From assembly GCA_018061685.1 (NCBI GenBank), contig JAGOTR010000004.1, positions 1 to 40,321 of the forward strand: a DNA stretch of 40,321 nucleotides. Direction: 5' to 3'. Shown here in pieces: positions 7,952 to 21,888 of the stretch; position 1 is the first letter of the stretch; every line of letters begins with the position of its first letter. The DNA comes from Candidatus Magasanikiibacteriota bacterium. GTDB lineage: Bacteria; Patescibacteriota; Patescibacteriia; Magasanikbacterales; UBA922. The notes beneath the pieces were generated by a model. The model was not told the DNA's origin, did no database searches, and saw only the letters and a program-made list of their open reading frames with translations. Made by a program: the position numbers and the translations under genes.

Positions 7952-8000
7952 ATCCCGCCCTTCGCTTTTTATAAGCAATATAGGACGCGGGATTTTTTTG
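7952..8000 (+). terminator. Terminator of doxX
   Basis: ATCCCGC (7952-7958) pairs with GCGGGAT (7987-7993), followed by a T-run. Confidence 0.8.
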
Positions 8001-8286
8001 TATATACTATTGTATACAAAGTATTTTCAAATAAAATTATTATTTTTTTATATAAAAAAACATACTTTTCACCATATCACACACTTTTCACATGGTTTTC
8101 CCTATATATATCCACATATACATACATATTTTGTATACACTATTGTATACATTGTGGATAACTATGTGCATAAAACCACCTAAAAGTGGATAACTTTAGC
8201 AAAATAGTGTGTTTGTATACACAATTTTATACATTTTTTATAAAAAAAACATATTATTTAGCTAGTTTAAGCTAAAACTTAACATA
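8000..8286. other. AT-rich region with DnaA boxes and TGTATACA repeats
   Basis: No gene. On the minus strand there are two exact TTATNCACA-type DnaA boxes at 8153-8161 (TTATCCACA) and 8165-8173 (TTATGCACA), plus a one-mismatch box at 8185-8193. The plus strand has another one-mismatch box at 8108-8116. Four copies of the palindromic octamer TGTATACA occur at 8011, 8132, 8144 and 8214. Together with long A/T runs this looks like a DnaA-binding locus, 11 kb from dnaA. It could be an auxiliary origin element or a DnaA-titration site. Confidence 0.55.
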
Positions 8287-8315
8287 TTGACAAAATGTGC
8301 AAAATATGCTATGAT
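8287..8315 (+). promoter_or_regulatory. Strong promoter of the 8.3-kb structured RNA
   Basis: TTGACA (8287-8292), 17 bases and TATGAT (8310-8315). Transcription would start near 8322. Confidence 0.85.
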
Positions 8316-8321
8316 ATACAC

Positions 8322-8736
8322 AGATCATTCACAAAGCAATGAGGTATGTTCTTCGCAACAATGTTGTGGGGGACATTTCCCTCTTTTACTGCCTCATCTT
8401 TACCAAACTGACCTGTTATCTTCTCTGTTCTTTTAAAAAAGCAACAAAAAACAAACAGTCTCAGTAAAAAACACTTCTTCGGGAGAGTGCTCCCACACAA
8501 ATACACATACAAAAACAAATGTAAGAGGCAAGTTTGGTAATTTGGTAGCCCCAACCATATACATCATTGTGATTCGTCCGTGATGTTTCGGGGTTTCACC
8601 TTTGCAGGCTGGTAGAAGAGTTCCGTCGTCCCAGACGGATTGTTCTACACATCACTTGATGCGTATGACACGACTCTTGGGACAACCAAAGGGCCCGCCC
8701 TTACATTCTTGTACCATGGGGCGTTGGCCCTTTTTT
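8322..8736 (+). ncRNA. Structured RNA of about 410 nt, family not recognised
   Basis: A consensus promoter, no convincing protein frame and a strong terminator define a transcript of about 410 nt. Several long-range helices are visible. ATGAGG 8339-8344 pairs with CCTCAT 8392-8397. A 10-bp helix joins 8400-8409 to 8531-8540. GTGATGT 8580-8586 pairs with ACATCAC 8649-8655, which stacks directly on GTAGAA 8612-8617 with TTCTAC 8643-8648. That is capped by CCGTC 8623-8627 with GACGG 8634-8638. The size suits RNase P RNA or tmRNA, but I find no P4/CR-V motifs and no tRNA-like ends or tag frame. A housekeeping RNA with divergent sequence, or a lineage-specific RNA, are both possible. Confidence 0.65.
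8689..8736 (+). terminator. Terminator of the structured RNA
   Basis: GGGCC (8691-8695) pairs with GGCCC (8726-8730), with an inner GCCC/GGGC pairing, followed by TTTTTT (8731-8736). It lies immediately before the dksA-like promoter. Confidence 0.88.
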
Positions 8737-8743
8737 ATTTGTC

Positions 8744-8772
8744 TTGCAAAAGGTGTCGATTTCATATATAAT
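8744..8772 (+). promoter_or_regulatory. Promoter of the DksA/TraR-like gene
   Basis: TTGCAA (8744-8749), 17 bases and TATAAT (8767-8772). The leader is about 30 nt. Confidence 0.8.
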
Positions 8773-8809: not shown

Positions 8810-9202
8810 ATGGCTGCAGCAAGCACTTCACCATTTTCATCATCTTTTTTGGCACAAATTAAACAAGCTCTTGAAGAGCAAAGAACCCGCCTTACCAAAG
8901 AACTGGCTGGTGTTGCTGTACCCGGAGGAAAAAACGGAGAATTCTCTGCAGACTTTCCTGAGTTTGGGGACAAAGAAGATGAAAATGCAAAAGAAATTGA
9001 ACAATATACCACCAATAAACCGCTCGAGATGACGCTTGAAAAAGAGCTTGTTGACATTGAAAAATCATTGGAACGGCTTACAAACAACACCTATGGTATT
9101 TGTAAATATTGCCATAATGCAATAGACGAAAAACGGTTATTAGCGAGGCCAACATCATCTTCTTGTGTGAGCTGCAAAAAAACACTAACCAACGAATACT
9201 AA
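8810..9202 (+). CDS. DksA/TraR-family C4 zinc-finger protein
   Basis: A 130-residue member of the DksA/TraR family, whose members reach into the RNA polymerase secondary channel or act as related zinc-finger proteins. A helical N-terminal half (about residues 10-90) precedes a C4 zinc finger with C98-x2-C101 and C119-x2-C122 (GICKYCHNAI...CVSC). The gap between helices carries many acidic residues (EFGDKEDENAKE). The frame extends upstream to 8744, but that extension overlaps the promoter, so the ATG at 8810 is chosen. lspA follows within 12 nt and the pair is likely one operon, an arrangement seen in other bacteria. Confidence 0.88.
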   Translation: MAAASTSPFSSSFLAQIKQALEEQRTRLTKELAGVAVPGGKNGEFSADFPEFGDKEDENAKEIEQYTTNKPLEMTLEKELVDIEKSLERLTNNTYGICKYCHNAIDEKRLLARPTSSSCVSCKKTLTNEY

Positions 9203-9213
9203 ACCATATTCCT

Positions 9214-9687
9214 GTGGAGCACGCACTCACTCCGCACATACAAAAACGCCTCTTATACGCTATTGGTATAAGTGGCTTTTTTTTATTTCTTGATCAAGTA
9301 TGTAAATACCTGGTACGACAAGACGTATCGTTTGCTTGGTATATTATTGATCATATTTTCGGATGGGAATATTTTGCAAATCCCGGTGTTGCCTTTGGCA
9401 TACCCATACCCAACACGGTTATTATTATACTCACCCCACTCCTATTATTCGGGTTATTGTATTACTTTATACACACCACACATACCAATTGTGTATCAAT
9501 CTTAGGCGGCTCGCTTATTATATTGGGCGCAATTTCTAATTTTATCGATCGCGTATTGTTTGGCGTTACCATAGACTACATTCGAATTTTTACATCGGTA
9601 GCAAATATTGCCGATGGTATGATTATTGCGGGAGTACTGTTATTTTTGTATGATCAATATATTGGAAGTATGCGGATATACAGATAA
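9214..9687 (+). CDS. lspA: Lipoprotein signal peptidase (signal peptidase II)
   Basis: A 157-residue aspartic protease with four membrane helices that removes signal peptides from prolipoproteins. Conserved boxes are all present: D27-x3-K31 in helix one, NPGVAFG at 56-62, GAISNFIDR at 105-113 with catalytic D112, DYIRI, and NIADGMI with catalytic D134. The start is uncertain. GTG at 9214 follows the upstream stop and gives normal length, while a TTG at 9163 would overlap the DksA-like gene by 40 nt. The 3' end, including the stop codon, overlaps the left arm of the 148-bp palindromic element. A plausible substrate is the lipoprotein-like protein at 11372. Confidence 0.93.
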   Translation: MEHALTPHIQKRLLYAIGISGFFLFLDQVCKYLVRQDVSFAWYIIDHIFGWEYFANPGVAFGIPIPNTVIIILTPLLLFGLLYYFIHTTHTNCVSILGGSLIILGAISNFIDRVLFGVTIDYIRIFTSVANIADGMIIAGVLLFLYDQYIGSMRIYR

Positions 9688-17953: not shown

Positions 17954-18331
17954 TTATTTCAAAAGCTTTGCACGATGCAACAAACGCTCAATGTCGAGAG
18001 CAATATTTTGATATGAATTATCCAACACGATTGGCTTTGCTTGAACCAAAAGAAACACACCCTCTTTTAATTTTTCTTGTTTAAGATACAGACGAATAAC
18101 TTCTCTCATTTGCCGTTTTACTCGATTTCGTTTCACCGCACTTTTTGAAACTTTTTTAGAAACCACAAACCCAATTTTACACATATCTTTGGTATACAAT
18201 CTTTTTGGAAACGCAATGATATCAATCGGCCACACAAGAAGCGTTACAACAGCACCGCCAAAAAACCGTCCTTTTTCAAACACGATTTCGATGTCTCTTT
18301 TTTTCTTGAGGCGATTGTGTTGTTGAAGCAT
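17954..18331 (-). CDS. rnpA: Ribonuclease P protein component
   Basis: A 125-residue RnpA, which binds RNase P RNA and helps position precursor tRNA. It begins MLQQHNRLKKKRDIEIVFEKG, typical of the family. The RNR motif lies in KSAVKRNRVKRQMREVIRLY, and a strand-helix end carries VFLLVQAK. A longer open frame up to 18511 crosses a repeat element and is not conserved, so the ATG at 18331 is chosen. It lies between rpmH and yidD in the usual order. The partner RNA gene is not recognised in this window. Confidence 0.94.
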   Translation of the reverse strand: MLQQHNRLKKKRDIEIVFEKGRFFGGAVVTLLVWPIDIIAFPKRLYTKDMCKIGFVVSKKVSKSAVKRNRVKRQMREVIRLYLKQEKLKEGVFLLVQAKPIVLDNSYQNIALDIERLLHRAKLLK

Positions 18332-18347
18332 AGAAATAAAGGGGAGC

Positions 18348-18416
18348 GTCATCCCTAAAAAAGAGGAAATCCACTTATTCACGTATATTGTGGATCCCCA
18401 CTTTCGCAGGGATGAC
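18348..18416. repeat. Interspersed inverted repeat between rnpA and rpmH
   Basis: GTCATCCCT (18348-18356) pairs with AGGGATGAC (18408-18416), and ATCCAC (18369-18374) with GTGGAT (18390-18395). The right side resembles a GTGGATCCCC...GGGATGAC repeat found between genes in many bacteria. Confidence 0.7.
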
Positions 18417-18439
18417 ATGTACCCTGTCAGTATAACAAA

Positions 18440-18467
18440 AGAACCTCTGTTGTGGGAGGCTCTCGTT
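18440..18467 (-). terminator. Weak hairpin after rpmH
   Basis: On the minus strand GAGCCTC pairs with GAGGTTC (one G-U pair), followed by TTTTG. It may attenuate read-through from rpmH into rnpA. Confidence 0.45.
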
Positions 18468-18470
18468 TGT

Positions 18471-18647
18471 TTATCGAGTTTTGCGAGTACGTTTTCCTTT
18501 TTTCTCGTCACTCACGGTCAATTTTTTTCTTGACTTTTCACGACGTCTTTTCAACACAGACCGTCCATTTTTGGTACTCATACGACTGCGGAATCCATGG
18601 GTTTTTGCGCGTTTTCTTTTTTTCGGTTGGTAGGTTCTTTTTGGCAT
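18471..18647 (-). CDS. rpmH: 50S ribosomal protein L34
   Basis: A 58-residue, very basic L34. It starts [19 protein letters not shown] and continues [17 protein letters not shown], the near-invariant family core. It has a longer than usual lysine/arginine C-terminal tail. It sits in the canonical position upstream of rnpA, with dnaA diverging on the other side. A consensus minus-strand promoter is at 18702-18730. L34 lies near the peptide exit region of the large subunit. Confidence 0.96.
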
Positions 18648-18933: not shown

Positions 18934-18958
18934 TTGTTTTTGGCTGTAGTTAAAAAAG

Positions 18959-18987
18959 TTATCCCCACCCTCCACAGCTTATCCACA
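18959..18987 (+). promoter_or_regulatory. DnaA boxes upstream of dnaA
   Basis: An exact TTATCCACA lies at 18979-18987 and a one-mismatch TTATCCCCA at 18959-18967. They sit about 90-120 bp before the dnaA start and may serve autoregulation or the origin. Confidence 0.7.
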
Positions 18988-19037
18988 GGTTAATAACTTT
19001 TTTGCTCTACTAAGCCATTTTTTCTTTTGTTCATATG

Positions 19038-19078: not shown

Positions 19079-20458
19079 ATGACCAACTATGAAATTTGGC
19101 AAGCCGTACTTGCCGATTTTGAACTTAAACTCTCGAAGGCTAACTTTACGACCTGGTTTCATAATACAGGAATAGGTGAATACGATGCGGGGAAAATTAC
19201 CATTTGTGTTCCTAATACCTTTACCAAAAGTTGGCTAGAAAAAAAATATAATGCCGATTTAGCCAAAACAATAGAACGGGTCACCGGAAAACCCGTAAAA
19301 CGCATAGAGTACAAGGTTGAAAACATGAAAAATATCACAGAACAAGAATGTATTGTACAACAAGCCCCTGTGGTTTCAACTATTCAAACACCCATATATT
19401 CTCAAACCACTCAAAAAGCCACCCAATTTGGGCTCAACCCAAAATACACGTTTGATACCTTTATTGTTGGAAAAGGCAATGAATTAGCCCACGCAGCAGC
19501 CCAAGCCGTGGCCGATCGGCCAGGTGAAGCCTATAACCCATTATTTATCTATGGAGACGTTGGGCTAGGCAAAACCCATTTGCTCCAGGCTATTGGGCAT
19601 ACACTACTTGAAAAAAATCCTCAGACAAAAATTTTATACGTCAGTTCAGAAAAATTTACCAATGAATTTGTGGCTGCGGTAAAGCAAGGGAAAGCAAAAG
19701 AATTTAAAGACCGATACCGCACGGTAGACCTATTATTAATTGATGATATTCAATTTATAGGAGGAAAAGAACAAACCCAAGAAGAATTTTTCCATACATT
19801 TAATGAATTACACCAACTCGGCAAACAAGTAGTCATGACGAGTGACCGACCACCTAAGGCTATTCCCGCTCTTGAAGATCGGTTACGCAGCAGATTTGAA
19901 TGGGGAATGATTGCCGATGTGTCTGCCCCAGACCTTGAAACACGCGTTGCCATTTTACAAACCAAATGCCAAGAAAAAGGGCTCACTCTTTCTCAAGAAG
20001 TATTAGAGTTGGTTGCATCAACAGTACAAAGTAATATCCGAGAGCTTGAAGGCGCATTAAATAAAATTTCTGTATTTCACCAAATAAAAAATAGCGTGGC
20101 TTCTCTTGAGAGTGTGAAGTCTATGCTGGCAAGCTTTGAAAGCCAATCCATGAAAAAATCCGTTACCCCGAGGCAAATTATTAGCACGGTCGGGTCATTT
20201 TATGATATCGAAATAGACCAAATTACAGGTAAAAGTCGTGAAAAGAAAATATCACTACCACGACAAATTATTATGTATTTGCTTCGTACAGAGCTCCAAA
20301 TGTCGTACCCCGCGATAGGAAATGAATTGGGAGGGCGAGATCATACCACAGCAATCCATGCACAAACAAAAATAGAAGAATTATTTAAAGAAGACATGAA
20401 AATAAAACAAGATATTGAACTTATTAAACAACAATTATACGCACAAAGTATTAAATAA
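19079..20458 (+). CDS. dnaA: Chromosomal replication initiator DnaA
   Basis: A 459-residue DnaA. Domain I (about 1-70) is followed by a short domain II. The AAA+ domain III has Walker A GDVGLGKT (159-166), Walker B LLLIDD (218-223), sensor I in MTSDRPPKAIPALEDRL and the arginine-finger region RLRSRFEWG. Domain IV ends with the DNA-binding signature GGRDHTTAIHA (418-428). All ATPase and DNA-contact residues appear intact. It binds TTATNCACA boxes, of which exact copies occur at 18979 and 8153-8173, with one-mismatch copies near 20.5 kb. The ATG at 19079 lacks a clear SD. Confidence 0.97.
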   Translation: MTNYEIWQAVLADFELKLSKANFTTWFHNTGIGEYDAGKITICVPNTFTKSWLEKKYNADLAKTIERVTGKPVKRIEYKVENMKNITEQECIVQQAPVVSTIQTPIYSQTTQKATQFGLNPKYTFDTFIVGKGNELAHAAAQAVADRPGEAYNPLFIYGDVGLGKTHLLQAIGHTLLEKNPQTKILYVSSEKFTNEFVAAVKQGKAKEFKDRYRTVDLLLIDDIQFIGGKEQTQEEFFHTFNELHQLGKQVVMTSDRPPKAIPALEDRLRSRFEWGMIADVSAPDLETRVAILQTKCQEKGLTLSQEVLELVASTVQSNIRELEGALNKISVFHQIKNSVASLESVKSMLASFESQSMKKSVTPRQIISTVGSFYDIEIDQITGKSREKKISLPRQIIMYLLRTELQMSYPAIGNELGGRDHTTAIHAQTKIEELFKEDMKIKQDIELIKQQLYAQSIK

Positions 20459-20760: not shown

Positions 20761-21888
20761 ATGCAATTTACCTGTACGAAAGAAAACATTGCACATGGAC
20801 TCCATATTGTTTGTGGCTTAGCAAGTAAACCAAGTCACTTACCAATTCTTTCTCATATTCGTATTACAGCAACAGAATCGGGAGTCACATTAGTTGCAAC
20901 AAATTTAGAAGTCGCTATTCGTGCATTTGTTCGGGCTAAAGTAGAGGTGCCTGGTGAATGGACTGTGCCAGCAAAAACATTGTTAGATTATGTATCGTTG
21001 TTACCTGAAGAACAAATACGCATGTCGCTTGAAGGAACTGAATTGATTGTGTCGTGTGGACGAACAAGTACCAAAATAAAAGGTATCACTGCCGAAGAAT
21101 ATCCAGTTATTCCAGATGTAGAAGAAGATGCCCCGTACTTACTCGGAGCTGAAGTATTGAAGCAATCACTCGCTCAGGTTGCGTTTGCTGCTGCAAAAAA
21201 CGAAATTCGTCCAGAATTGTCTGGTATTTATATGGGATGCTTTGTTCGAGAAAAACAAGGAATCTTTTTTGCCGCAACTGATTCGTATCGGTTAGCTGAA
21301 CGATTTGTTCCTCTTACCACGGAAGGGCAAACGAGAGAGGTGATTATTCCCGGAAAAACAGCAATGGAATTTATTCGTCTTATTGGATTTTCTTTGGGAA
21401 AAGACGGTGTGGAACAAGATGTTCGTATTTGGCTCAGCCAAACACAGATTGCTCTTCGTTTTGATACATTTGAAGTGACTTCTCGATTGGTAGATGGAAC
21501 GTATCCTGATTATACACAAATTATTCCACAGGCATTTCAAACCACAGTGGTATTTTCTAAAGATGCCTTGGTGAATAGTATGAAAGCATCAAGCCTGTTC
21601 ACTACAACGGGCATTAACGCGGTTTCTTTGGTTATTAAGTCAGATGAGGGTGCGGTGACCGTTTCGTCAACCAGCACGCAAACTGGGGCCCATGAGACGG
21701 TATTGGATACGGAAGTGATAGGTGTGGATAATGATATTGTGTTGAATCACAAATATGTATTAGAAGGTATGCAGCATGTAACCGATGGGGATGTTGAATT
21801 AAAAATGAATGATAAAGAATCTCCTTGCTTGTTTTTGTCTAAAACGAGTGATGCGTATAAGTATATTGTGATGCCTATTCGGCAGTAG
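20761..21888 (+). CDS. dnaN: DNA polymerase III beta subunit (sliding clamp)
   Basis: A 375-residue beta clamp with three repeated domains of about 125 residues. Family blocks are visible: LPILSHIRITATESGVTLVATNLEVAI in domain one, ELSGIYMG and AATDSYRLAE in domain two, DGTYPDYTQIIP in the linker region. It ends YKYIVMPIRQ, equivalent to the conserved final MP(M/V)R. The clamp encircles DNA and tethers polymerase III; its loader subunit HolA is at 6.4 kb. It follows dnaA as usual, but recF and gyrB do not follow. Confidence 0.96.
   Translation: MQFTCTKENIAHGLHIVCGLASKPSHLPILSHIRITATESGVTLVATNLEVAIRAFVRAKVEVPGEWTVPAKTLLDYVSLLPEEQIRMSLEGTELIVSCGRTSTKIKGITAEEYPVIPDVEEDAPYLLGAEVLKQSLAQVAFAAAKNEIRPELSGIYMGCFVREKQGIFFAATDSYRLAERFVPLTTEGQTREVIIPGKTAMEFIRLIGFSLGKDGVEQDVRIWLSQTQIALRFDTFEVTSRLVDGTYPDYTQIIPQAFQTTVVFSKDALVNSMKASSLFTTTGINAVSLVIKSDEGAVTVSSTSTQTGAHETVLDTEVIGVDNDIVLNHKYVLEGMQHVTDGDVELKMNDKESPCLFLSKTSDAYKYIVMPIRQ

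Follow-up and report, generated by a model that had tools for sequence, protein, structure and literature searches.

The DNA upstream of dksA-lspA in Candidatus Magasanikbacteria almost certainly encodes a real, widely conserved, and undescribed structured RNA. In the window (the whole 40,321-nucleotide stretch that was analyzed), it is a discrete gene at 8287-8736 with a transcript of about 410 nt and its own intrinsic terminator. Sequence comparison indicates an RNA gene of about 350-450 nt that Patescibacteria have conserved and that is present as a single copy in the window's family. By the same comparison, its lineage is much wider than one genome and takes in the phylum Patescibacteria. 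The existence of the transcript is predicted from the promoter, the terminator, and conservation. The features of the locus are as follows.

8153-8193, pair of DnaA boxes, TGTGGATAA (8153-8161, exact box, minus strand) and AGTGGATAA (8185-8193, one mismatch), 32 nt from start to start
8195-8285, AT-rich stretch with GCTAAA/TTTAGC repeats (TTTAGCTAGTTTAAGCTAAA) between the DnaA boxes and the promoter
8287-8315, plus strand, sigma-70-type promoter TTGACA-17-TATGAT with an extended -10 (TG extension), 11 of 12 consensus matches
8323-8333, plus strand, boxA-like antitermination element GATCATTCACA at the 5' end of the transcript
8346-8376, plus strand, H1 hairpin, 14 bp in the predicted fold, which most relatives have
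8381-8620, plus strand, central domain with closing helix P2 (8381-8394/8607-8620), P3 (8402-8413/8527-8538), an A-rich strand (about 8500-8519), and the P4 arm (8544-8600)
8621-8685, plus strand, 3' domain with local hairpin P5 (8623-8627/8634-8638) and an alternative long-range helix (8628-8633/8678-8683), from covariation
8689-8737, plus strand, P7, conserved two-tier intrinsic terminator hairpin with a T tract, a 9-bp outer stem with 8 covarying pairs, and an inner CC/GG stem
8744-8772, plus strand, separate dksA promoter TTGCAA-17-TATAAT, 10 of 12 consensus matches
8810-9202, plus strand, dksA/traR-type zinc-finger gene (PF01258), conserved downstream neighbor by synteny
9163-9687, plus strand, lspA (signal peptidase II; PF01252), second conserved neighbor

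Fold and covariation of the RNA

The first-pass annotation had proposed a structured RNA without a convincing protein between a consensus promoter and a strong terminator, and each of these elements is present. The promoter is the best among ten promoter-like sites of the region. The total number of such sites is at the chance level, so the promoter alone is no proof. A near-identical promoter stands at the equivalent place in about 25 of 30 relatives, whose fetched loci have a nearly perfect TTGACA-17-TAtnnT promoter 440-780 nt before dksA and DnaA boxes upstream of it. The terminator is the P7 hairpin with its T tract, and the conservation of the hairpin itself is unusual. We saw no ORF that the relatives share.

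The plus strand from 8323 to 8738 folds at -129.7 kcal/mol (z = -5.0), and none of 100 shuffled sequences folded as well. The strands of the P2 closing helix are CUUUUACUGC and GGUAGAAG, and the central domain contains a conserved unpaired AAAACAAAAACAAAA strand. The P3 arm is absent in Uhrbacteria, and P6 of the 3' domain is shortened in the window's genome. P5 and the long-range helix share one strand and both covary, so that they either form in alternation or make up a strained pseudoknot.

A BLASTN search of 39 relatives with the RNA returned only the query itself and one chance match because the RNA sequence diverges. Homologues were therefore gathered by synteny: the dksA gene (PF01258) was collected from 59 relatives and the upstream regions were read. 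The relatives' transcripts, taken from promoter to terminator, align into one RNA. It lies upstream of dksA-lspA in nearly all Ca. Magasanikbacteria relatives and is also found in Uhrbacteria, Falkowbacteria, Buchananbacteria, Parcubacteria SG8_24, and a 'Paceibacter'.

Plain MAFFT alignments submitted to RNAalifold gave 38 pairs in the central domain and 35 in the 3' domain. Compensatory double changes occur in 28 of the 38 central pairs (alignment A2) and in 29 of the 35 pairs of the 3' domain (alignment A1) at the first count, or 30 of 35 on recount. Both domains together, with the recount, have compensatory changes in 58 of 73 base pairs. The wider alignment A8, which was fitted to the model and is hence biased towards the structure, has 31 of 38 covarying pairs. 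None of 500 shuffle controls was as good on nearly every measure, and 1 of 500 tied on one A2 measure. The cells pairing on the named structures amount to 92% and 87%, compared to 79% and 70% in the shuffles and 31-53% with slid partners, a control that collapses. The paired columns contain 104 G-U and 28 A-C combinations, an excess that assigns the RNA to the plus strand. Compensatory changes in independent genomes have thus preserved the helices, as is general for structured noncoding RNAs. One of the two helices picked out by the first-pass annotation, 8400-8409/8531-8540, corresponds to P3, where 8 of 10 pairs have compensatory double changes in relatives. The other, placed at 8580-8655, is not conserved; the region instead forms P2, the P4 arm, and the overlapping alternative helices at 8623-8638 and 8628-8633/8678-8683.

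Models of the RNA were used to follow its distribution. In the window, R2 matches 8377-8621 (125.7 bits) and R1 matches 8606-8740 (59.9 bits), and both models match loci outside the training set (for example, L016, L026, and L032). In the 39 relatives, R1 picks up a single strong copy in 21 of the 25 genomes of the same family. This copy lies at the dksA locus, and no second strong copy turned up in the family. The RNA and dksA of genome G014 are at the ends of different contigs. The counts leave out weak R1 matches on the strand opposite true loci, which stem from the palindromic P6 hairpin. The broader model R3 locates the RNA in 135 of 381 sampled genomes of the class, a lower bound obtained with strict filters. 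Among the top 23 newly fetched class loci, dksA follows within 900 nt in 22 and exact DnaA boxes lie upstream in 22. Outside the class, most matches at E <= 0.01, notably in two families, precede dksA and have a TTGACA promoter; the matches L194, L197, and L201 look like chance. The idea of a new RNA class of this lineage thus holds for the novelty of the RNA, which has covariation and no Rfam match, but its range is the phylum, wider than one genome could have shown. A contig labeled Firestonebacteria (L135, MFGS01000137.1) carries a Magasanikbacteria-like dksA and the RNA (R1, 114.6 bits) and is probably misbinned.

Leader and upstream region

The published boxA consensus derived from E. coli is GYTCTTTAANA in gammaproteobacteria (PMC5725501). 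In the 75 nt that follow the -10 box, boxA-like elements are present in 34 of the 66 leaders compared to 1.2 expected from shuffles. Some leaders have exact copies of the consensus (GCTCTTTAACA in L016; GTTCTTTAAAA in L017, L189, and L190). The window's copy, GATCATTCACA, departs from it, and about half of the leaders have a degenerate boxA or no match to it. The own genome's 16S leader carries the boxA GATCATTACAA, and an Uhrbacteria 16S leader carries GATCATTCACA itself. No such boxA leader was seen by eye in eight RNase P or tmRNA genes. These data place a boxA sequence close to the start of the RNA. The 16S leaders of Magasanikbacteria also have a conserved AACGTCTATTCAAA-like element downstream of boxA (L171-L175). 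Several 16S rRNA genes (L174, L175, and L176-L179, in genomes G020, G421, and G017) are in separate pieces, pointing to inserts within the rRNA genes or to contig breaks.

The 350 nt before the -35 element contain 97 exact DnaA boxes in the 66 loci compared to 0.29 expected, and 59 of the 66 have at least one. Pairs of boxes 31 or 32 nt apart occur in 28 cases in the homologous loci. The boxes are about 100-160 nt upstream. Both they and the boxA leader had been missed by the first-pass annotation, which had recognized the RNA. At some loci outside the class, the RNA is present and the DnaA boxes are weak or missing. GCTAAA is found in 32 of 66 loci compared to 5.4 expected, and the AT-rich stretch at 8195-8285 is a possible unwinding element. 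The RNA locus therefore has the oriC pattern, a DnaA-box cluster with an AT-rich candidate unwinding element, as judged from sequence. The DnaA boxes in the window are flanked by four TTTGTATACA-type near-palindromic repeats (7997-8243; TGTATACA pairs 12 nt apart), which look like operators or a partition/initiator site.

The dnaA gene is 7-18 kb from the RNA in 14 of 16 genomes. In the window, the gap between rnpA (17954-18511, minus strand) and dnaA (19079-20458, plus strand) holds DnaA boxes TTATCCCCA and TTATCCACA at 18940-19000, and dnaN is next at 20761-21888. Cumulative GC skew in the window is lowest near 21 kb, closer to dnaA, and is noisy in two other genomes. The rnpA-dnaA gap, near the skew minimum and 11 kb from the RNA, is a classical origin candidate. 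The DnaA boxes in this gap and the skew minimum mean that the origin may be there.

Comparison with known RNAs and alternative explanations

Rfam 15 (4227 families) at the gathering threshold gave no match to the RNA in the window or in 56 homologous loci, and the checks for RNase P RNA, tmRNA, and 6S RNA proposed by the first-pass annotation were among those that came back negative. A permissive scan of the window stretch at E <= 10 returned noise only, and five homologous loci at E <= 1 returned nothing but one noise match elsewhere in L083. ARAGORN and Rfam detect four tRNAs in the window and nothing else. The RNA is not described in the literature searched on noncoding RNAs in Patescibacteria, Parcubacteria, and Magasanikbacteria, a coverage that excludes preprints and most subscription journals.

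The locus has no RF00010 or RF00011 match, and RNase P RNA is encoded at other loci in 35 of 38 relatives. A tmRNA, sought by its tRNA-like domain and tag frame with RF00023 or ARAGORN, was not detected at the locus. Candidates are present elsewhere in 39 of 39 genomes, 36 of them above the family cut-off, and the window genome's own tmRNA is on another contig (C60; G000:C60:8524-8921). The locus does not match RF00013, and its fold is not the single bubble-bearing hairpin of about 190 nt that typifies 6S RNA. No 6S RNA above threshold was found in the relatives; a lone sub-threshold 6S-like match (L168, G002:C2:449-546; 37.9 bits, E 1.8e-6) occurs in one relative only. RNase P RNA was not matched in the window's own genome, whose assembly is 89.5% complete. 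The four genomes without a match are G000, G018, G027, and G034, the last three of which are 97-98% complete; rnpA is present in the window. They have either a divergent RNase P RNA or an assembly gap.

The size of the RNA, together with the RNase P RNA and 6S RNA that were not found, would fit a very divergent form of RNase P RNA, tmRNA, 6S RNA, or SRP RNA. This identity is very improbable: RNase P RNA and tmRNA reside at the other loci just described, models R1 and R2 do not match those genes, the permissive Rfam scan gave only noise, and the fold is unlike all four families. Short ORFs are present on both strands of the locus, as a short protein gene or chance structure in AT-rich intergenic DNA might produce, but the covariation, the phylum-wide recurrence, and the fixed architecture leave this explanation refuted for practical purposes. 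The near-constant dksA neighbor and the two mutually exclusive covarying helices before the terminator raise the idea that the RNA is a long 5' leader or attenuator of dksA-lspA, with a conditional terminator and alternative helices that switch readthrough. We consider this unlikely. The dksA gene has a promoter behind the terminator here and in several relatives, the gap from the model match to dksA ranges from about 200 to 1300 nt, and a leader of this size with conserved distal domains and an rRNA-type boxA would be unusual.

A role in cis at the origin has more to recommend it, although we regard it as a tentative alternative. The DnaA-box cluster would be all or part of a replication origin, and the RNA or its transcription, which runs away from the AT-rich stretch, would regulate origin opening like mioC/gidA transcription or plasmid RNAI/RNAII. 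The exact boxes in most loci, their 31/32-nt pairing, the GCTAAA stretch before the promoter, and the proximity of dnaA are consistent with this idea. However, the rnpA-dnaA gap also has DnaA boxes and is near the skew minimum, the RNA persists at some loci outside the class where boxes are weak or missing, and transcription alone needs no compensatory changes along 400 nt. The known origin-proximal transcripts are likewise transcription units beside DnaA boxes, but they are mRNAs or plasmid primer RNAs, and to our knowledge none is a conserved chromosomal structured RNA with a boxA.

Other known systems resemble the RNA in part. Leaders of rRNA operons with boxA and NusB/S10 antitermination have a strong promoter, boxA within tens of nucleotides (PMC5725501), and an untranslated structured product, and the same element is in the own genome's 16S leader; here, however, the product is not rRNA but a single 400-nt RNA with its own terminator. 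The RNA is like tmRNA (RF00023) and RNase P RNA (RF00010/RF00011) in size, multi-helix fold, and presumed single-copy housekeeping role, but it lacks a tRNA-like domain, a tag frame, and the RNase P core. Like 6S RNA (RF00013), it would be expected to be a widespread, abundant regulatory RNA, but it is about 400 nt with several domains. The large bacterial RNAs OLE, GOLLD, ROOL, and raiA are ornate, conserved, and mostly of unknown function. All four are in Rfam as far as we know, whereas the RNA here has no Rfam match and another genomic setting.

Proposed role and significance

We propose, with a probability of about 0.5, that the gene encodes an undescribed, Nus-antiterminated, trans-acting housekeeping or regulatory RNA and abuts a predicted DnaA-binding region. 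The strong promoter would start the RNA, with the boxA-like element in its first tens of nucleotides. A Nus complex on boxA may maintain the processivity of RNA polymerase along an RNA that is highly structured and not translated. The model is that of rRNA operons, where boxA antitermination protects long untranslated transcription from Rho. The predicted fold of the transcript begins with a hairpin, continues with the closed central domain and its unpaired A-rich strand, and ends with the 3' domain, where two helices are alternatives, and the terminator hairpin. The RNA would then work in trans as part of a ribonucleoprotein, and it would be stable, probably abundant, and similar in size to RNase P RNA or tmRNA. 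The conserved fold, the discrete terminator, and the separate dksA promoter suggest the trans function, for which the analysis found neither a partner protein nor a target, and the tight synteny with dksA and the DnaA boxes would also suit a function in cis. DnaA bound just upstream may tie transcription of the RNA to the replication cycle, a control of the promoter suggested by motif position. A more speculative and rather doubtful extension is that a phylum-wide RNA under DnaA control, beside or at the origin, links transcription or growth in Patescibacteria to their chromosome cycle, with the exclusive 3' helices as a switch and the neighboring DksA in the same circuit.

Few structured RNAs are known to us that are ancient, large, single-copy, and conserved through much of a bacterial phylum (rRNA, RNase P RNA, tmRNA, SRP RNA, and 6S RNA). 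Patescibacteria genomes are pared to essentials, and a further large conserved RNA in them suggests that some important task is handled there neither by proteins nor by known RNAs. The rRNA-style boxA and the DnaA-box neighborhood are directly testable leads. The family is ready for Rfam and can help to annotate genomes and metatranscriptomes of Patescibacteria. An apparently basic part of the patescibacterial cell machinery has gone unnoticed, its fold kept across the phylum and its letters not.
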